From Thalassospira profundimaris (GTDB taxonomy: Bacteria; Pseudomonadota; Alphaproteobacteria; Rhodospirillales; Thalassospiraceae), in contig NZ_JPWF01000006.1 of assembly GCF_003326675.1 (NCBI RefSeq), positions 186,001 to 250,000 on the forward strand: DNA of 64,000 bases, read 5' to 3'. The notes under the pieces are model-generated. The model made no database searches and was not told the DNA's origin. It saw nothing but the letters and a program-made list of their open reading frames with translations. Positions 23,059 to 55,236 of this stretch are shown piece after piece (the stretch's first letter is position 1; the number at the start of each line of letters is the position of its first letter). The translations under genes and the position numbers were made by a program.

Positions 23059-23847
23059 ATGAACCGAATTGGCGGCCTGACGCGGCCTGATGAAAGCAGC
23101 GTCACATCCGACCGGGATGCCATGACACAATGTGTTTTTGTCGTTGAAGACAACACGGACCTGAACAAGGACCTGTGTGAGTATCTGGAAATGTGCGGTT
23201 TTGACGTCGTTGGATGTGAAACCGGCGCGGCCTTTTATCGTGCTCTTCAAACCAAACAACCAGATGCCGTAATCCTTGATATCATGCTGCCCGATGCTGA
23301 TGGCTATGAACTGGCAAAGCATGTACGCAAGAATATCGACTGCGGCATCATGATGCTGACGTCGCTTTCCGGCATGGATAACCATTTGACCGGTTATAAG
23401 TCCGGTGCGGACGTTTATCTGACCAAAGACAGTCCGCTGTCCGTTATCGAAGCCGCGCTTAAGCCGCTTATGCGTCGTACAGCGCGTACTGATGTTGAAA
23501 GTGATCAGGAACAAATTGCCACCGAAGATGGCTGGGTTCTTGATATGCTGAACTGGACGCTGCGCAATCCGCAAGGCGACGAAGCAAGCCTGACCGCAAC
23601 AGAACGAACAATCGTCAAGTTGCTGATTGAAGCAAATGGTGCCTGGCTGACCCGGCCCGAAATCATTGTGGAACTTGGCAAGGCAGATACTGCGGAAAAT
23701 TGCCGCAACCTTGATACGGCAATCCGGCGGGTACGCCAAAAGATCCTTAAGGAAATTGGTGAAGAACTGCCTGTCAAAACCGCCTATGGCCGCGGCTATG
23801 CCTTTACGTCGCCTGCTGTTGTTCTGGGCACTGCCGACGCATCCTAA
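23059..23847 (+). CDS. OmpR/PhoB-family response regulator
   Basis: This regulator of about 262 residues has a receiver domain (CVFVVEDNTDLN acidic pocket, phosphoacceptor VILDIMLPDADGYEL at about Asp74, conserved Lys in YLTKDSPL). The C-terminal winged helix reads ATERTIVKLLIEANGAWLTR, with KTAYGRGYAF later. I chose ATG 23059 because GAAGG lies seven bases upstream. ATG 23122 would start right at the receiver fold. It is convergent with two sensor kinases and most likely receives phosphate from them. The -TCACA- and A+T-rich sequences upstream may hold its promoter. Targets unknown. Confidence 0.88.
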   Translation: MNRIGGLTRPDESSVTSDRDAMTQCVFVVEDNTDLNKDLCEYLEMCGFDVVGCETGAAFYRALQTKQPDAVILDIMLPDADGYELAKHVRKNIDCGIMMLTSLSGMDNHLTGYKSGADVYLTKDSPLSVIEAALKPLMRRTARTDVESDQEQIATEDGWVLDMLNWTLRNPQGDEASLTATERTIVKLLIEANGAWLTRPEIIVELGKADTAENCRNLDTAIRRVRQKILKEIGEELPVKTAYGRGYAFTSPAVVLGTADAS

Positions 23848-23916: not shown

Positions 23917-25917
23917 TCAGTCCTTCTCTACGGTGCTTTCTTCGCAGGGCAGAAGAAGGCAAAGCTCGATACCCGTCATCCCGTGGTCGCGCAATTTAAT
24001 CGATCCGCCATGGGCATCAACAATGCGTTGTGAGATATGCAGGCCAAGGGCACTGCGCATTGACTGGGTTTCGACATCATGCCGGAACAGGGCATTGCCA
24101 ATCAGCCGGATTTCCTCGTCATCAAGTTCGGGGCCCGAACAGGGAATAGCGATCTCGGCAAGCCACTGGCTCTGATGGTGCAGTTTGATCTGAATGGGTT
24201 CTCCGTGGGCGAACCGTCGTGCCGTTTCTATCAGGTTGGTAATGGCAAGCCCGATCAGTGTCGGGTCGATATAGGATTCAAGCGTTTCCGGAACATTGCC
24301 GGTTACAAGGATTTCAGCATCGTCGCGTGATGTGTGGGCGACAAACTCGTCCATGAACGGTTTAAGCTGAACCACTTCACGGGCCAGAGAAAAAGCCTGA
24401 TCGTCCATGCCATCCTTGCTTAGGAATATATCGACCAGACGGGCAAGTTTCTGTGCCTGAAGCTGAATACGTTGCAGGCGGTCCTGCACATCACCGTTAC
24501 TTTCACGTAATCTGAGCATCAACATCTCTGCCGATCTTTGAATAACCGCAAGCGGTGTGCGGAATTCATGCGACAACATCGAAATCAGGTTGCGTTGTTC
24601 CTCGACCAGGGTGGTCGTTTCCTTGGCCTTAAGCGATATCGAGATGCGTTCACGGTCCATGCGCGCCAACCGGAATCCCATCAGAACGCCCATGCCGACG
24701 ATATGGAATAGGGTCGTAAACTGATGAAGCCCAAGACGAAGCGGAGTTATGTCAATCAAACCCGTATGGGAAAGTTGCAGCAGTATGGCGGGACCTGTCG
24801 GGATAACCAGAAAAGTCAGATATGCCCAAAGCTGTAGGTTGCGCAGGTCATCAATCAACAGTCTGAGTAGATAGGCACACATCAGGGCCATGAAAAGAGA
24901 ATGGCTCGGAACAAGGTAGGTTCCGAAAATCGTATAAAGATTGTTGGTCGCACCACCCATGAACACCAAAATCAGTGCGACATAGCCACAGCATATCTTG
25001 AACATCAATGGATGACGTTTACGAACATCAGCAATGTGAAGCCACAAATATGCAGTGGTTGCGTGGGATATGATATTGATGTTGCCAAGTAAAAAGTCAT
25101 TAAGCCAAGGCGTCTCGGGCTTGATGTCACTCAGGACGACCCCGTTCACAATTGCAATAACGCTACCTACGCTGATCACCCAGACGCCATACAGAACGAC
25201 GATCCTGTCATGTGCGATGGAACCAAGTGTCAGATAGGCAAGGCCAAGCGTTATAATCAGCCCGAAGAACACGTTGGTCGCGACATTCCGGAAAGTAAGG
25301 GACGTGATCAAATCGGTTGGTGGCCAGAATTTCACCTGTATAAAGCTGGTGCTATTGCTTTGTACCCGGATATACATCCGGTAATTCCCGGCTTCCAGGG
25401 ATGGCAAATCCGTCACATGGGTTGTGCCGGCAAACGGCCGCTGGCTGGCCGGGACGTGATCCCCAAGATGGGATTGCCAGATGGGTTTTCTGGTCCCGTC
25501 GGCGAAAATCGCAACATCAATGAAGTTCAGATAAGTCGGATTAAACTCGACAAGCGGATGCGTGGTCAGCTTGTCAAAAACAGTCATGTCCAGCCGATAC
25601 CAGATCACATCGCGGCTATAGCCAAAGGACGGGATCGCCTTGTCTTTGATAAACGCATCACCCGGAAGGTTGGCGATATCATCAAAGGTCAAACCATGTG
25701 ATCTGTCTACAAACCATCTCAGGTGCTGTGTGACATCAATCGGGGCAGGAAGAAAACTTGAAAGTTCCAGTATTTTGGGAACCTGCGTTGTCTCTTCATC
25801 GGCCTGTGCAGGCGGGCACAGCACACTTGCAATGAATGCGATTAGCAACGCTGTGATCATCGCAACCTGTGTGCGGAATGATGACATTCTCGGGAATGAA
25901 ACAGATTGCCCAATCAT
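23917..25917 (-). CDS. 7TM sensor histidine kinase with degraded catalytic domain
   Basis: This 666-residue inner-membrane sensor has a signal peptide (1-40) and a periplasmic 7TMR-DISM extracellular sandwich (about 60-200). Seven TM helices follow (about 205-420), then a HisKA domain with intact LSHEFRTPLAVIQ (His450) and an HATPase-like domain. The ATP-binding motifs are eroded. The N box reads NLIETARRF, with Thr565 where Asn is needed. The DxGxG motif is replaced by IPCSGPELDD, and G2 is only ALGLHI. It probably cannot autophosphorylate and may act as phosphatase, phosphoacceptor or heterodimer partner. Its start overlaps the stop of the upstream paralogue by four bases. Confidence 0.88.
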   Translation of the reverse strand: MIGQSVSFPRMSSFRTQVAMITALLIAFIASVLCPPAQADEETTQVPKILELSSFLPAPIDVTQHLRWFVDRSHGLTFDDIANLPGDAFIKDKAIPSFGYSRDVIWYRLDMTVFDKLTTHPLVEFNPTYLNFIDVAIFADGTRKPIWQSHLGDHVPASQRPFAGTTHVTDLPSLEAGNYRMYIRVQSNSTSFIQVKFWPPTDLITSLTFRNVATNVFFGLIITLGLAYLTLGSIAHDRIVVLYGVWVISVGSVIAIVNGVVLSDIKPETPWLNDFLLGNINIISHATTAYLWLHIADVRKRHPLMFKICCGYVALILVFMGGATNNLYTIFGTYLVPSHSLFMALMCAYLLRLLIDDLRNLQLWAYLTFLVIPTGPAILLQLSHTGLIDITPLRLGLHQFTTLFHIVGMGVLMGFRLARMDRERISISLKAKETTTLVEEQRNLISMLSHEFRTPLAVIQRSAEMLMLRLRESNGDVQDRLQRIQLQAQKLARLVDIFLSKDGMDDQAFSLAREVVQLKPFMDEFVAHTSRDDAEILVTGNVPETLESYIDPTLIGLAITNLIETARRFAHGEPIQIKLHHQSQWLAEIAIPCSGPELDDEEIRLIGNALFRHDVETQSMRSALGLHISQRIVDAHGGSIKLRDHGMTGIELCLLLPCEESTVEKD

Positions 25918-27956
25918 GGTTCATTCCTTTTGCCCGGGGTTGGACGCACGTGTCCCGGAATGCTCATTTTCTGTTGGCTGTTTCCAAGAATGGTTGCTTC
26001 CTGATTGTAAGGCAGTTTAAGCAGGATCGTCGTACCGCCATGTTCGCCGACACTGACGGACATGGTGCCGTTATGGGCTTCAATGATCCGGCTCGTGATA
26101 TGCAGGCCCAGTCCGACGCCCTGCGTTACCGACGAATCCTTACCGCGATAAAAGGCGTTCTGAACCTTGCCAAGTTCGTCTGCGGGAATGCCTGGCCCTT
26201 CGTCAACCACGCGAATATAGACATATCCGTTTGCCGATCGTGTCGAAGCGATCCAAACCGGCGCACCCCGGGCATATTTGCGGGCATTTTCGATCAGGTT
26301 AATGATCGCGCGTTCCAAAAGAATACGGTCAATATCGACAATCGCGAAATCCGCACCGATCAGGCTGACATTCTGTTCCTGGACTTCATGGGAACGCCGG
26401 GCCACCAAATCTGTCAGGAACTGATCAATGGCGACATGTTCGCGTGATGTCGAAAAGGTCGCGCTATCGAGCGTATCTTTGGTCAAAAAGGCATCGACAA
26501 GGGCTGAAAGCTGCCCGGCATTGCGCCGTATCGTCACCAGCCGACTTTTGATGGTTTCGTCTTCCTTGCGCATATGCAATCCCAGAATTTCAGCAGATCG
26601 CTGGATAATGGCAAGCGGAGTGCGAAATTCATGGGAAAGCATGGTGATGAAGGTGCGCTGTTCACCTGCAAGCTGGGTGGCGCGCTGACTGCTTTGATAG
26701 GCATCGGCCCGTTTGTGCGCCAGTCGATACAAACGAACCGCCATCGCAATAGCCACCATGCCAAGATGGATGGTCGAGCTTGCCTTATAGATATTTGCGG
26801 TAAAGGCATTGATGGGGGCGACGCCGATCAAGGTCAAAAGATGGATCGATGCCGCGATGGTCGGAACGCCCAGTGCCACCAGATAAAAGACGTACATCAG
26901 GATGCCGTTATCCCGGTATCCTTGGACAATCAGATATCCCAGCAGCACAAAGAACAGGCACACCTGGGGGATAAAGAAGATCCGGGCAAAGTAGATGTAA
27001 TAGTCCGTTACCGATGTCAGCATCCCCATGATCAGAAGGGCCGCAATACCGATCATAATTCGGAACAGGATCGGATTATGCTTATCAAGACGGACGATAT
27101 AGGCCCACATGATGCAAGATGAACCGATCAGCAGTGCGGTTCCGGTACCGGTAATGAAATCCGATGCCAGCAGCCACACGCCCTTAAGCAACAATTGGGC
27201 ATATCCGGTGGTGCTGAAATTCAGCAGGAACAACGCAAAGATATAAACCGAATACCAGATGACAGGCGGGTCACGCGACAACAGGCCAAAAGTCAGATAA
27301 AGCCCGAAAGCAACAATCAAAATACCCAGATAACTGCCATTGCGATAACTTTCGCTGCCGGTCTCGGCGATGAATGTTTTCTCGGTTTGCAGTTCGGCTT
27401 CGAATACGTGGGAACTTGTGGTAACCACCCGAATGATCAGCCAGTAATGACCAAAATCCAGGTCCGGCCACAGGCTGACATGTTTCAGATTGGCCATCCG
27501 TCCGGGAAGTTGCGGGATGCGATCACCCACCCGGTCTTCCCATACGACATTCCCGGTTTCCTGTGAAATGATGGTCAGGGCAATATCATTCAGATATGCC
27601 GCCCCCATTTCGATAAAGGCGGAGCTGCCCGGATTGTCAAAGCGGCTTTCGACCGTAAAGGGCGCGCGCAACCAAACAGCACGGGAAGTATATCCGGGGC
27701 CGGGGCGGCCATAAACCGGTTCGAATTCGCCAGAAGGAATATTGACAAGATCAGCAGGGATCGTGATTTCCCGGTCGGTCGTCAGACGTTCAAGAAACTG
27801 ATTAAGGGCGATATCGTTGATCGGGCCATCACGGCCGACGACAAAATGTTGCTGACCCTCATGGGCATGGGAGGGCTGCGAAAAAACAGCAAAAAGACCG
27901 CTGGCAATGATTGCCCACAATGCAATCAACATCATGTTCAAGCGGAAAACGCGCAA
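25914..27956 (-). CDS. 7TM sensor histidine kinase (7TMR-DISM type), intact
   Basis: This 680-residue sensor has the same architecture as its neighbour: signal peptide (1-31), periplasmic DISM domain to about 200, seven TM helices at about 205-412, HisKA with MLSHEFRTPLAII (His442), and an HATPase with all boxes intact (NLIENARKY, VVDEGPGIP, GVGLGLHI). DISM domains are thought to bind carbohydrates or related small molecules. The kinase is likely active and coupled translationally to the degenerate paralogue. Together with the convergent OmpR-type regulator it forms a three-gene signalling module. The stimulus cannot be deduced. Confidence 0.92.
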   Translation of the reverse strand: MRVFRLNMMLIALWAIIASGLFAVFSQPSHAHEGQQHFVVGRDGPINDIALNQFLERLTTDREITIPADLVNIPSGEFEPVYGRPGPGYTSRAVWLRAPFTVESRFDNPGSSAFIEMGAAYLNDIALTIISQETGNVVWEDRVGDRIPQLPGRMANLKHVSLWPDLDFGHYWLIIRVVTTSSHVFEAELQTEKTFIAETGSESYRNGSYLGILIVAFGLYLTFGLLSRDPPVIWYSVYIFALFLLNFSTTGYAQLLLKGVWLLASDFITGTGTALLIGSSCIMWAYIVRLDKHNPILFRIMIGIAALLIMGMLTSVTDYYIYFARIFFIPQVCLFFVLLGYLIVQGYRDNGILMYVFYLVALGVPTIAASIHLLTLIGVAPINAFTANIYKASSTIHLGMVAIAMAVRLYRLAHKRADAYQSSQRATQLAGEQRTFITMLSHEFRTPLAIIQRSAEILGLHMRKEDETIKSRLVTIRRNAGQLSALVDAFLTKDTLDSATFSTSREHVAIDQFLTDLVARRSHEVQEQNVSLIGADFAIVDIDRILLERAIINLIENARKYARGAPVWIASTRSANGYVYIRVVDEGPGIPADELGKVQNAFYRGKDSSVTQGVGLGLHITSRIIEAHNGTMSVSVGEHGGTTILLKLPYNQEATILGNSQQKMSIPGHVRPTPGKRNEP

Positions 27957-50986: not shown

Positions 50987-51146
50987 CCTGAATTCAGCCA
51001 TTTCGCGCGAATTTCCGGGCGGTAATTAACCATCACGTTAAAAATGAAAATCCGGATGTGGGTTATTGTGCGCTGCAAATCAACCCGCGGGCGTTGCGTG
51101 CATTTCCAATAGGTGTGCGCTGGGGGCGGCCGTTCTGTCTTGACAT

Positions 51147-51188
51147 AAAAAAGGCGCTGCCGCCGGTTTCCCGGGGAAGCGCCGTTTT
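51147..51188 (-). terminator. Terminator of the unknown membrane-protein gene
   Basis: A GGCGCT/AGCGCC outer stem with an inner G+C-rich loop. Reading the minus strand it is followed by TTTTTTATG. It lies 22 bases past the stop codon at 51210. Confidence 0.75.
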
Positions 51189-51209
51189 AAGGGCTGGGCT
51201 GTTGACGGC

Positions 51210-52052
51210 TTACTGTCCGCAGTCGGTCTGGCTGATCCTGAAGGTGTTCAGGTGCTCGTGATCGGTGACATAGTTTTCAACAAACACCGCACCGGCCTTC
51301 ACCAGTATTTCGATTTTCGGGTCATTGCACAGATAAGCCGCGATCTGCTCGTGGGCATCGGATGTAAATTCAAAGCCCGGCTCGTAAACGATATAGGTCC
51401 GCTGCAATTCGTTCTGGGCGGCCTTGACCATCACCAGATCCACTGTTTCGCCGGTCGTAATCGGCAGCATGGGCTGAAGCTCGTCCGCGATCCGGCCAAG
51501 CTGGGCGCTTAACTGTTTCTGGTAATTCTCGGTGATCAGGGTCGTTTTGATATTAACCGACGTATAAATACCAAGCGCAAAGATCATCAGGCCAACTGCG
51601 ACGCCCTTTCCACCGGATAAAAACGGGGTGGTGCCGGGGCGCAAAAATCCTGGTCGGTTACGTCCGCCTTTCAAAAGAAGATAAAGATTGGCAAGCGGGA
51701 TAAATCCCAGAATTGCCAATTGCTTTTGTCCACCGATATCGATCGCCCGTGCGACTGAAACACGACCAAGGATAAATCCGGTCAGTGTGATGACAATCAG
51801 GGGATATCCCGTCGCCAGCCAATAAAGATTATGTTCGATTGCGGGCAGGGTAAAAAGCGTTCCGATCCCGGAAACTGCATTGGCAAAGGCCAAAAGCGAA
51901 AGGCTGACGAAATACTGCGCCCTGGTGATCGAAAGTTTGCTGTTACGTGATATCGCCCCCAATAAACCTGCCAGGGCAAATATCCCGAAATGGAGGACCC
52001 GGACGGTTTCATCCGGCAAGCTGGCATAGCTGGTCGCGAGATCGTTCAGCAT
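51210..52052 (-). CDS. Polytopic membrane protein of unknown function
   Basis: I do not recognise this 280-residue protein. About five hydrophobic helices are visible: residues 20-36, 45-70, 80-97, about 110-127 and 151-167. A soluble C-terminal region of about 110 residues (YQKQLSAQLGRIADELQPMLP onward) is probably periplasmic, with two Cys (AAYLCNDPK and the C-terminal TDCGQ). The membrane-then-soluble layout could suit a sensor or envelope protein. It stands alone with its own terminator; neighbours give no functional hint. Confidence 0.75.
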   Translation of the reverse strand: MLNDLATSYASLPDETVRVLHFGIFALAGLLGAISRNSKLSITRAQYFVSLSLLAFANAVSGIGTLFTLPAIEHNLYWLATGYPLIVITLTGFILGRVSVARAIDIGGQKQLAILGFIPLANLYLLLKGGRNRPGFLRPGTTPFLSGGKGVAVGLMIFALGIYTSVNIKTTLITENYQKQLSAQLGRIADELQPMLPITTGETVDLVMVKAAQNELQRTYIVYEPGFEFTSDAHEQIAAYLCNDPKIEILVKAGAVFVENYVTDHEHLNTFRISQTDCGQ

Positions 52053-52205
52053 AAAATCGTTCTTCTCCCCGTATGGTCTTCAGGCGACGGAGAATAAGAA
52101 CGTTTCGGGCGTTGCGAAACTAGCTGGAAGAGTAGGTTTTGCTAATGAATGCGCGGATTTGAATGGCTCATATCCGGTATGAGCCATTCCAGGATCTGGT
52201 TTGGT

Positions 52206-52790
52206 CTATTTTTCGCGCTTTGGATTGCTTTCCGGGGTGGTGCCGTCACCATCGCCCAAGCCGCGCTGCATGATCACGCTATCGACCCAGCGGCCCAGTT
52301 TAAAGCCCGCCGACTGCAATGTTCCGGCAACCCGGAAGCCAAGCCGTGCATGAAGGCCGATGGATGCGACATTGGCGCTGTCGCCAATCACCGCCACCAT
52401 CTGGCGATAACCAAGCGCTGTGCACCGTTTGATCAGTTCTGAAAGCAATGCGCGCCCGGCACCCTTGCCGACAACATCGGGCGCGATATAGATCGTGTCC
52501 TCGACCGTAAAACGATAGGCCGGGCGCGTCCGGTAGGATCCGGCATAGGCAAATCCTTCGACCCGTCCGTCAAGCTCCGCCACAAGATAGGGCAGGCCGC
52601 GTTCGCGCACATGTTGCCAGCGCGATGTCAGTTCGGCAATTTCAGGGGCGCGTTCCTCGAACGAGGCAAGGCCATGCAATACATGATGGCCATAGATTTC
52701 CGTGATGCGCTCGAAATCATCGGGTTCGGCATCGCGAATCACCAGATCGTGCAAAACATCGCTGGTCGCAGTATCGGTCGGGGTGGTCAT
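52206..52790 (-). CDS. GNAT family N-acetyltransferase (phosphinothricin acetyltransferase-like)
   Basis: This 194-residue GNAT enzyme has IRDAEPDDFERITEIYGHHVLHG at the start, acetyl-CoA-binding VVGKGAGRALLSELIKRC near residue 115 and a HARLGFRVAGTLQSAGFKLGRWVDSVIMQRGL C-terminus. These are typical of the Pat/YncA branch, which acetylates phosphinothricin, methionine sulfoximine or sulfone. The start overlaps the stop of the N-formylglutamate amidohydrolase gene by one base (TAATG), so the two are translationally coupled. The natural substrate is unknown. Confidence 0.87.
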   Translation of the reverse strand: MTTPTDTATSDVLHDLVIRDAEPDDFERITEIYGHHVLHGLASFEERAPEIAELTSRWQHVRERGLPYLVAELDGRVEGFAYAGSYRTRPAYRFTVEDTIYIAPDVVGKGAGRALLSELIKRCTALGYRQMVAVIGDSANVASIGLHARLGFRVAGTLQSAGFKLGRWVDSVIMQRGLGDGDGTTPESNPKREK

Positions 52791-53656
52791 TAAAACGGGT
52801 TCCCGTCGAGATCGTGGAAGGACGCGATCAAGGCAGTCATCTGATCGCGCAAAATGTCAAATCCGCGATGCGGGGTGATTGTGGCTTCATCCATATAAAG
52901 GGCACGCGACAGCTCGATCTGAAGGCTGTGCACATGCTCCTCGGGGCGGCCATAATGGCGGGTGCAATAGCCCCCGGCATAAGGATCATTATGGGCCGGG
53001 CCAAAGCCCATATCGCGAAGACAATCATCCACAAACCGCGTCAATGACGGGTGGCAGGAACTTCCATAGCAATCGCCAAGCACCAGATCAACGCGGTTTT
53101 TCATGCTGTCTGCGGAATCGCCGGGCATCGAATGGCAATCAATCAGGATGCAATAACCAAACGTATCACGCGTTTGATCAATCAGTTTCTGCAAGGCCCG
53201 GTGATAGGGATGGTAATAGGTATCAATACGTTCAAGCGCCTCTTCGACAGGCAGGCGGGATTTGTAAATCTCGACCCCGCCACTGACCACACGCGGAATC
53301 GACCCAAGCCCCGAAAGGGCCCGCATCGAATTGATTTCCGCATCATGGGGCAATTGTCCGTCAAACATGCGCGGATCAAGTTCCATCGCAGCCCGGTTCA
53401 CATCGACATAGGCCCGTGGAAATGTCGCGCACAGCAACGGCGCGCCCAGCTTGGGCGCGGCCAGAAAAAGCTGATCGACAAAGGCATCTTCCGATGCGCG
53501 CAGTTCAAACGATCCGATCCGCGCATTTTCAATCAGGTCCCTGGGATAGTGGCGACCCGAATGCGGGGATGCAAACACCACCGGCAATGTTTGCTCTGGT
53601 GGCAGGATAACAGTAGCAGGCCCGCTAGAGGCAATTTCCGAAGGCAACTGGTTCAT
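52790..53656 (-). CDS. N-formylglutamate amidohydrolase family protein
   Basis: This 288-residue HutG-like zinc hydrolase has the family motifs VVFASPHSGRHYP near residue 28, RASEDAFVDQLF, RAYVDVNRAAMELDP, ILIDCHSMPG near 160, and LSRALYMDE near the C-terminus. It releases formate from N-formylglutamate, or acts on a related N-acyl amino acid; it is not next to hut genes, so the substrate is inferred only. I chose ATG 53656 as the start of the conserved region, although its ribosome-binding site is weak. Coupled to the downstream GNAT gene. Confidence 0.87.
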   Translation of the reverse strand: MNQLPSEIASSGPATVILPPEQTLPVVFASPHSGRHYPRDLIENARIGSFELRASEDAFVDQLFLAAPKLGAPLLCATFPRAYVDVNRAAMELDPRMFDGQLPHDAEINSMRALSGLGSIPRVVSGGVEIYKSRLPVEEALERIDTYYHPYHRALQKLIDQTRDTFGYCILIDCHSMPGDSADSMKNRVDLVLGDCYGSSCHPSLTRFVDDCLRDMGFGPAHNDPYAGGYCTRHYGRPEEHVHSLQIELSRALYMDEATITPHRGFDILRDQMTALIASFHDLDGNPF

Positions 53657-53878
53657 TGTCGTTCGTAATGTCCATCCCTGTATGGGTTGTTGAATATCCC
53701 GCGATCCTTCCCCTAGCATATGGTAATTGGAGCAGAATTGATGAAGATTTTTTGTCAAAATTCCATTTCTGGGGTTGCGCCTTTGTCTGCCTTGGGCTAA
53801 ATACCGCCTCGCCGACGCAAACGGCACGGACCGAACCTTTCACCCTGATCGGGGCGGTCTTTTAAAAGATGGATTTGC

Positions 53879-53955
53879 GGGCCTATAGCTCAGTTGGTTA
53901 GAGCGTTCGCTTGACATGCGAGAGGTCACAAGTTCGAGTCTTGTTAGGCCCACCA
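53879..53955 (+). tRNA. tRNA-Val (GAC), copy 1
   Basis: A complete 77-base cloverleaf including encoded CCA: acceptor GGGCCTA/TAGGCCC, D arm GCTC/GAGC with AGTTGGTTA loop, anticodon arm TTCGC-TTGACAT-GCGAG with anticodon GAC, variable AGGTC, and T arm ACAAG-TTCGAGT-CTTGT. It reads GUC and GUU valine codons. It is followed 16 bases later by an identical copy. Confidence 0.97.
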
Positions 53956-53971
53956 TCTTTTACACCCATAG

Positions 53972-54048
53972 GGGCCTATAGCTCAGTTGGTTAGAGCGTT
54001 CGCTTGACATGCGAGAGGTCACAAGTTCGAGTCTTGTTAGGCCCACCA
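53972..54048 (+). tRNA. tRNA-Val (GAC), copy 2
   Basis: Base-for-base identical to copy 1 over all 77 positions, including CCA. The 16-base spacer suggests one precursor transcript. A terminator follows at 54054. Confidence 0.97.
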
Positions 54049-54053
54049 TTCCC

Positions 54054-54087
54054 ACCCCGCCGGGTTGCCGCGCGGGGTTTTGTGTTT
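54054..54087 (+). terminator. Terminator of the tRNA-Val pair
   Basis: An ACCCCGC/GCGGGGT stem with an 11-base G+C-rich loop followed by TTTTGTGTTTT, directly after the second tRNA. Confidence 0.75.
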
Positions 54088-54186
54088 TAGCTCTTCCTGT
54101 ACCTATCTCAATCAGATTTGAGTGAGTTTCGGTGTGGGGGCCATATACTGGATGATATTCATCATATTGGTTTGGTCGGAGGGCCG

Positions 54187-55236
54187 ATGGCGGGAATAAA
54201 GCAGCATTACATTCCTCAGCTTCTACTCAAAGGATTCGGGCGTCCACGTGGACGAAAAGTTGTTCAAGTCGTTGTTTTCAGCCGTGAGAATGTTTTCTCC
54301 ACAGCTACCGACGGAGTAGCCGCCCAAAGGTATTTCTATTCGAGGCCTGATGGAACAGGGGAAACCCTTGATGATCGTATTACGAGTTATGAGAACGGTT
54401 TGAACTCAATGCTCGTACAATTAAGAGCTACGCAGCGAATTGATGCAGGATTGAAGCTGAAGTTAGGTGAACTTGTTGTGCATCTCTGTGTGAGGGCTGC
54501 CGTAGTTCGTGAAAGCTTTGGGTTCGCTGCAAAGCGTATTGTCGGTCGTTTCGAAAGCGAATTCTCAAGCCCTGCGTTGGCCCGAAAAGCACTTGGAATA
54601 GACGCCCTTGTGCTACCGAAATTAGTTCGAGACGAATTCGACAGCATTTACGAGCGTTACTCAGTGGAGTTCTCACTAAAAGGTATTAGTAAGCTTGGGT
54701 TTCGCGAACTAGCATCACAATGGACCCGCAAAAACTTTAATGAGAACTTCCAGAGAAACTTGGGTCGTATTACCGAGGAGTTGGAAGGTATTCAGCGAGG
54801 TATCAATGAGGTCGTTGAAAACTCTCATCGTAACGTGTTGAAGCAAGGTTTGGCTCCCAGTCAGCGCGTGCGTGGTCTTGAGCGTCTGGAATGGCGGGTA
54901 GTGCCCTGTCAAAATTCTGACTTGGTACTACCTGATTGTGTCGCTATTGCCTCAGATAATGATGGGAATTGGGGGCCGTACGTATTTTTCAAACTAGATG
55001 CAATCTCGCGCGTAATCATGCCGATTTCTAATCAGTTTGCACTTTGTGGGGCTGTTAATCCATCTGATCGATGTTTACCTGAAAACTACAACAAGCTGCT
55101 TGCTAGCTGTTCGTGGCAGTTCTTTGTTTCAAGAGATCAAAACTCATTTTTAGATCAGTTCAGACCGATCATCGGAGCTGCTGTAGTTGAACAAATGCGT
55201 CACGCACTTGTTAAGCCAATTGCCTTGACATCGTAG
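54187..55236 (+). CDS. DUF4238 domain protein, probably horizontally acquired
   Basis: This 349-residue protein begins MAGIKQHYIPQLLLKGFGR, the hallmark of DUF4238 (HYIPQ...L+GF). It continues with FYSRPDGTGETLDDRITSYEN, an all-helical middle (residues about 85-250) and ANPSDR-like blocks in the C-terminal part. The family has no established function and is found mainly in accessory regions. ATG 54187 has GGAGG five bases upstream. The codon usage is A+T-richer than its neighbours (many TTA, AGA, CGT, ATT codons). It lies just downstream of a tandem tRNA pair, a favoured integration site. No integrase or direct repeat is visible. Confidence 0.82.
   Translation: MAGIKQHYIPQLLLKGFGRPRGRKVVQVVVFSRENVFSTATDGVAAQRYFYSRPDGTGETLDDRITSYENGLNSMLVQLRATQRIDAGLKLKLGELVVHLCVRAAVVRESFGFAAKRIVGRFESEFSSPALARKALGIDALVLPKLVRDEFDSIYERYSVEFSLKGISKLGFRELASQWTRKNFNENFQRNLGRITEELEGIQRGINEVVENSHRNVLKQGLAPSQRVRGLERLEWRVVPCQNSDLVLPDCVAIASDNDGNWGPYVFFKLDAISRVIMPISNQFALCGAVNPSDRCLPENYNKLLASCSWQFFVSRDQNSFLDQFRPIIGAAVVEQMRHALVKPIALTS

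Follow-up and report, generated by a model that had tools for sequence, protein, structure and literature searches.

Why should a bacterium keep, immediately downstream of an intact sensor histidine kinase, a paralogue whose ATP-binding domain is eroded? The question is raised by a 64,000-nucleotide stretch of the Thalassospira profundimaris genome (contig NZ_JPWF01000006.1, positions 186,001 to 250,000; hereafter, the window), in which two genes for 7TMR-DISM sensor histidine kinases lie in tandem on the minus strand. The upstream gene, K1 (25914–27956), starts with TTG and encodes a protein of 680 residues with an intact catalytic domain; the downstream gene, K2 (23917–25917), starts with ATG and encodes a paralogous sensor of 666 residues with an intact H-box and a degenerate ATP-binding domain. 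Converging on K2, tail to tail, is the gene for an OmpR-type response regulator (23059–23847, plus strand). A first-pass annotation of the window proposed that an active kinase is paired here with a pseudokinase. This proposal is well supported by sequence, namely by conservation of the pair across the genus, purifying selection, constant synteny with a single regulator, and gene overlap in 22 of 29 genomes.

Motif loss in K2 and its conservation

The H-box motif SHEFRTPL is common to both proteins, with the phosphoacceptor at His442 of K1 (26631–26633; this and all residues below are on the minus strand) and at His450 of K2 (24568–24570). The catalytic motifs differ. The N-box is NLIENARKY in K1 versus NLIETARRF in K2, where Thr565 (24223–24225) replaces the Mg-binding Asn. 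The DxGxG (G1) loop is VVDEGPGI in K1, which includes Asp585 (26202–26204), versus IPCSGPEL in K2, where Cys593 (24139–24141) replaces the Asp, and the G2 box is GVGLGL in K1 versus a degenerate RSALGL (24040–24057) in K2. These readings agree with the first-pass annotation, which had SHEFRTPL kept in both proteins and the N-box Asn, the DxGxG loop and part of G2 missing from K2. In HATPase_c domains, the G1 Asp contacts adenine and the N-box Asn binds Mg. Judged by its motifs, K2 has presumably lost ATP binding and is very probably catalytically dead.

We followed these residues through 29 Thalassospira genomes, that of the window included; a search at the level of the family, which holds one genus, returned the same 29. 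Every one of them (the window and 28 others) has the three genes, K1, K2 and regulator, lying in a constant order with folP on one side and glmM on the other. When named records were scanned with the K2 alignment, 22 of 31 matched over most of the protein length, 21 of them from Thalassospira and one from a Rhodospirillales bacterium. The N-box Asn, G1 Asp, G2 glycines (GxGLG) and F-box Phe are invariant among the 29 K1 orthologues, and the phosphoacceptor His is present in 28, with Tyr in the remaining one. Not one K2 orthologue has the G1 Asp, which is replaced by Cys (20 genomes), His (6) or Tyr (3), or the F-box Phe (Leu in 28, Met in one). The N-box Asn is kept in 6 of the 29 and is Thr in the other 23. 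The first G2 glycine survives in one K2 and the second in four; the third is universal, as is the LGL of this box. The HExxT motif of K2 (the phosphoacceptor His, Glu+1 and Thr+4) is complete in 29/29, and residues 446–461, SMLSHEFRTPLAVIQR, are invariant across the genus orthologues.

As is required of a histidine pseudokinase, loss of nucleotide-binding motifs is thus fixed across the orthologues of K2. Intact motifs in close relatives, which the first-pass annotation had named as grounds for abandoning its reading, are nowhere found for the G1 loop, whereas the N-box Asn does persist in six deep-branching genomes (G009, G010, G013, G017, G019 and G025). Since the G1 Asp is absent from every K2 and the Asn has been lost only outside this deep group, the G1 loss is the older of the two and is fixed. 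In this deep group, five of the six K2 proteins (L046, L047, L050, L054 and L056) also have ∼20 extra residues in the ATP-lid region, inserted after the F-box and before G2; no such insertion is seen in the other K2 proteins or in K1.

Both proteins have the DISM-7TM-HisKA-HATPase layout described by the first-pass annotation, with Pfam matches to 7TMR-DISMED2, 7TMR-DISM_7TM, HisKA and HATPase_c. The HATPase_c score is 79.4 bits for K1 versus 40.3 for K2 (cut-off 26.4), and two matches fall slightly below their Pfam cut-offs (DISMED2 of K1, 21.4 versus 22 bits; 7TM of K2, 27.5 versus 29). No other protein of the genome matches 7TMR-DISM_7TM at E ≤ 0.001. At the same threshold, all four domains are found in every K2 of the genus; for K1, 7TM, HisKA and HATPase_c are found in 28/28 proteins scanned and DISMED2 in 17/28, the frame-split K1 of one genome being excluded. 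That genome (G020, locus L057) is a draft, 88% complete, in which K1 is broken into two frames and K2 is intact. The K2 frame is open in all 29 genomes, with identity down to ∼35%.

Ratios of nonsynonymous to synonymous substitution (dN/dS) were estimated by the Nei-Gojobori method, using our own script, for 14 genome pairs, which overlap and are not independent. In K2, dN/dS ranges from 0 to 0.15 in the dimerization and histidine phosphotransfer (DHp) domain, from 0 to 0.20 in the catalytic and ATP-binding (CA) domain, from 0.05 to 0.25 in the 7TM domain, and from 0.03 to 0.51 in the periplasmic part. It is below 1 for every domain and defined pair, the maximum of 0.51 coming from the periplasmic part in one close pair. 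The corresponding K1 values are 0–0.34 for DHp (one pair undefined) and 0–0.13 for CA. Of the 14 pairs, 12 have a higher CA ratio in K2 than in K1, one has the same ratio in both, and one has a lower ratio in K2. This pattern indicates that K2 is maintained, with constraint on its CA domain relaxed but not absent; by this measure, K2 is under purifying selection.

The CA fold of K2 is predicted intact by AlphaFold2, 10-residue means of the predicted local distance difference test (pLDDT) being 79–87 over residues 511–660, except for values of 48 and 69 at 611–630. The low-confidence residues, 613–622, lie directly before the G2 box, and the lid region of the K1 model (604–612) is likewise poor. 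Among the best 50 of 177 Foldseek matches to the K2 model (E ≤ 0.001) are the cytoplasmic regions of histidine kinases such as CpxA, HK853, GacS and RetS.

Eroded kinases are not unheard of in this genome. For a base rate, we placed its 39 HisKA frames on one alignment. Neither the N-box Asn nor the G1 Asp is present in two of them, K2 and L122, and K2 is the only one of the 39 in which both residues are lost and HExxT is complete. L096 and L109 lack the G1 Asp alone (L109 has Asn instead, and L096 has no alignable G1). The CA part of L123 falls outside the alignment, its motifs being intact on pattern reading, and the H-boxes of L110 and L124 are unaligned. L122 (C7:52529; stretch 51000–54300) reads HGLRTE, has no recognisable N or G1 box and, by eye, carries two apparent receiver domains downstream in the same frame. 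In another protein, L118 (C1:448300; stretch 446800–450000), the acceptor His is replaced by Arg (SRELTKPL) and the G2 glycines are lost; it keeps the N-box Asn and G1 Asp, a route of decay that differs from that of K2.

Origin of the pair

How the two genes came to lie side by side can be approached through kinases from elsewhere in the order. Like K1 and K2, these are 7TMR-DISM kinases, which match across sensor and kinase parts with 22–32% identity. Places that matched in the kinase part only were excluded; the match reached the membrane or sensor part at 19 places in 17 genomes, of which 18 were used, a second, equal-scoring copy in G157 being omitted. A quick tree method applied to 76 proteins (29 K1, 29 K2 and these 18) places all K1 in one group (support 96) and all K2 in another (100), and separates the two together from the outside kinases (100). 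The program flagged places where long branches meet, including K1 with K2 and both with the outside set. The N-box Asn and G2 (GxG) are intact in 18/18 outside kinases and the G1 Asp in 16/18, the exceptions being two near-identical proteins (L072 and L081) with Asn at this position. The coding sequence of one outside protein, L073, is spread over two frames.

Around the 18 outside kinases, the neighbouring DNA examined (limited in four cases by a short contig) showed no second 7TM kinase; other kinase-like matches nearby cover the kinase part only. Among samples of 297 order-level genomes (searched with the K2 sequence, best 4 candidates each) and 385 class-level genomes (searched with a profile at E ≤ 1e-35, best 3 each), no K1–K2 pair was found outside the genus. 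We accordingly rejected the idea that K2 belongs to a wider family, no such pair having turned up in the places inspected in either sample. The sole class-level match outside the genus (G346; L162, 5073–6823) is a lone, distant kinase of the 7TM type from another family of the class; its frame seems to be broken ahead of the G1 box, and the second piece, in another frame, has intact G1 and G2 motifs. The simplest history is that a tandem duplication took place on the stem of the genus and was followed by loss in one copy, K2 presumably giving up nucleotide binding and K1 keeping it.

A proposed division of labour between K1 and K2

What K2 may contribute is suggested by the uneven similarity of the two paralogues. 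K1 and K2 are 55% identical in the DHp domain and 21–30% identical in the sensor, membrane and CA parts. Averaged over comparisons made inside single genomes, identity is 54% in the DHp domain, compared to 25% in the periplasmic part, 24% in the 7TM domain, 15% in the linker and 28% in the CA domain. Identities to the outside kinases are 38% (K1) and 36% (K2) for DHp, and 28% (K1) and 22% (K2) for CA, so that the ratio of DHp to CA identity is larger between K1 and K2 than between either paralogue and the outside set. These values suggest that the DHp domains have been kept alike beyond what the rest of the proteins would predict. As a guide to choice of partner, we took the five positions of HK853 that were changed to rewire it (named in the title of 4jas), three of which are on helix 1. 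At H+8, every K1 has Ile and every K2 has Val; Arg occupies H+11 in each of the 58 proteins; at H+15, Met is universal in K2, and K1 varies between Ile, Met and Leu.

The adjacent OmpR-type protein is, on sequence grounds, most likely the cognate regulator of K1 and K2; its receiver domain has, without exception in the 29 genomes, the acidic pair and the key Asp, Thr and Lys residues expected of a functional receiver. Sugars or related compounds are the presumed ligands of DISM extracellular domains.

A natural variant bears on the direction of phosphate flow. In T. lucentensis DSM 14000 (G005; L042, 7011–9101, minus strand), K1 reads SYEFRTPL, with the codon TAC in place of CAC; its catalytic motifs are intact, as is the His of K2. 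In the sister genome G004, the K1 His is present. The same Tyr is encoded in NZ_ATWN01000001 (L131; T. lucentensis MCCC 1A00383 = DSM 14000), evidently the same assembly, and we count the two as one observation. If real, the substitution would be allowed by a division of labour between the two chains, and not by a pathway through K1 alone.

The closest described case is that of FasB/FasC and FasA in group A Streptococcus, which, like K1, K2 and their neighbour, comprise two sensor-kinase-like proteins and one regulator. The published account reports a FasB/FasC heterodimer by two-hybrid analysis, with the kinase domain of FasC dispensable and its His required, and proposes that FasC is a pseudokinase whose H246 receives phosphate from FasB (PMC12675982). 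Organism and locus are different, and the His of FasC has been shown to matter in that account, whereas that of K2 is known only as conserved. Two sensor kinases and one regulator are encoded together in all 29 Thalassospira genomes, as a pair of the FasB/FasC type demands.

Collectively, these observations lead us to a tentative model, to which we give slightly less than an even chance, in which K1 phosphorylates K2 in trans within a K1–K2 heterodimer. The two proteins would be halves of one sensor, held together by DHp helices still similar enough to permit heterodimerization. The catalytic domain of K1 would bind ATP and phosphorylate His450 of K2 and perhaps also His442 within K1; transfer of the phosphoryl group to the adjacent OmpR-type regulator, the presumed partner of the pair, would follow. 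K2 would add a second periplasmic DISMED2/7TM sensor together with an acceptor and docking helix, with the consequence that output would depend on both sensors. We favour this model because K1, K2 and the regulator co-occur in place in 29/29 genomes, because K2 lacks the G1 Asp yet has an invariant His, Glu+1 and Thr+4, because the DHp domains are alike and the helix-1 partner positions near-identical, and because selection on the K2 CA domain is relaxed but not free. The loss of His from K1 of T. lucentensis, where K2 keeps its own, and the FasB/FasC precedent add to the case. DHp similarity and the His-to-Tyr variant make us lean towards trans-phosphorylation, though they are not decisive. 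In its extreme form, which we consider possible but rather unlikely, the tandem paralogues would make up an obligate, vertically inherited two-chain sensor that divides catalysis from phosphoacceptance, with K1 as the ATP-using engine and K2 as the acceptor; in T. lucentensis, where K1 no longer has its His, signals would pass only from the K1 catalytic domain to the K2 His.

Several points weigh against trans-phosphorylation. HExxT also serves phosphatase activity, and hence the conserved His, Glu and Thr of K2 fit a phosphatase too. High DHp conservation is general in these kinases, with identities of 0.36–0.45 to outside relatives. At the two helix-2 rewired positions, K1 has Thr475 and Arg483 versus Arg478 and Leu486 in K2 (placed by hand from the alignment); docking of the regulator may therefore differ, which weakens the case for a docking surface common to both. 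Six K2 proteins still carry the N-box Asn, and the K1 His-to-Tyr change is known from one assembly only. Finally, an intact His is no proof of its use, since the His of the RocA pseudokinase is dispensable (PMC7028121), as is that retained in a laboratory ChrS pseudokinase (PMC9491836).

The principal alternative is that K2 acts as a brake or phosphatase, either in a heterodimer with K1 or alone on the regulator. In one ligand state, K2 would remove phosphate or hold K1 inactive, in the manner of RetS with GacS or RocA with CovS. The complete HExxT of all 29 K2 proteins is consistent with this idea, and both the K2 profile and the K2 model match the solved structure of RetS, among others. However, bound nucleotide often assists phosphatase action in HisKA proteins, and K2 is probably unable to bind any. 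A pure brake, too, would have no need of the His that is invariant in K2 and has been lost from one K1. We regard a brake or phosphatase as a substantial possibility, short of probable. Trans-phosphorylation apart, K2 might also work as an independent homodimer that binds ATP in an unusual way, as could be argued from its predicted intact CA fold, the Asn in 6/29 proteins and the universal LGL of G2. We consider this improbable, as the adenine-binding Asp is absent from 29/29, replaced by Cys, His or Tyr, and the residues before the G2 box are poorly modelled, although the same region is poor in K1 too. That K2 is a functionless, decaying duplicate or a sequencing artefact is scarcely credible despite its higher CA dN/dS in 12/14 pairs, because recent decay or sequencing error, the other prospect raised by the first-pass annotation, is contradicted by an open frame and the same gene order in 29/29 genomes and by dN/dS below 1 throughout (≤0.15 in DHp).

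Gene context, parallels and significance

Expression of the two genes may well be linked. The stop codon of K1 and the start codon of K2 share the sequence ATGA (25914–25917, minus strand), confirming the four-base overlap claimed by the first-pass annotation, and this arrangement would couple their translation. An NTGA overlap is found in 22/29 genomes (the window and 21 of the 28 others), and in the remaining seven the K2 start lies within a few bases. In the window, K1, K2 and the regulator are flanked by folP and ftsH on one side and by glmM and thiD on the other; folP and glmM were identified by Pfam, and the other two we take to be ftsH and thiD from their sequences by eye.

Among other known systems, RetS and GacS are both hybrid kinases, and their genes are not linked; rocA is likewise unlinked to covS, and the autophosphorylation residue of DivL is a Tyr, where K2 keeps His. 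Rv0600c/Rv0601c is a split kinase. By analogy, RocA/CovS, DivL/CckA, ChrS/HrrS and RetS/GacS are looser parallels than FasB/FasC. In Pseudomonas aeruginosa, RetS directly regulates another sensor kinase, GacS, as proposed here for K1 and K2, but does so by inhibition instead of cooperation (PMC5992135). RocA of group A Streptococcus is, like K2, a His-keeping pseudokinase that interacts with an active sensor kinase, CovS (PMC7028121). DivL of Caulobacter, whose structure (4q20) is matched by the K2 profile, is an alphaproteobacterial pseudokinase partner of the active kinase CckA, and needs neither its ATPase domain nor its autophosphorylation residue (PMC9491836).

Sensor kinases are usually taken to be homodimers, and few natural heterodimers have been reported (PMC12675982, PMC9491836). 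Our searches on Thalassospira two-component kinases and on degenerate histidine kinases turned up no paper on this pair among those listed; the other searches were aimed at analogues. Here, an entire genus keeps active and inactive tandem paralogues with one neighbouring regulator, and the outside relatives examined show the unpaired state. Together with the intermediate motif loss of some species, these relatives form a graded series from kinase to non-catalytic partner. Through the natural His-to-Tyr variant of K1, the direction in which phosphate flows can be tested directly. A split-job sensor pair of this kind has already been glimpsed elsewhere; in Thalassospira, the candidate pair comes with an unusually clear evolutionary record.

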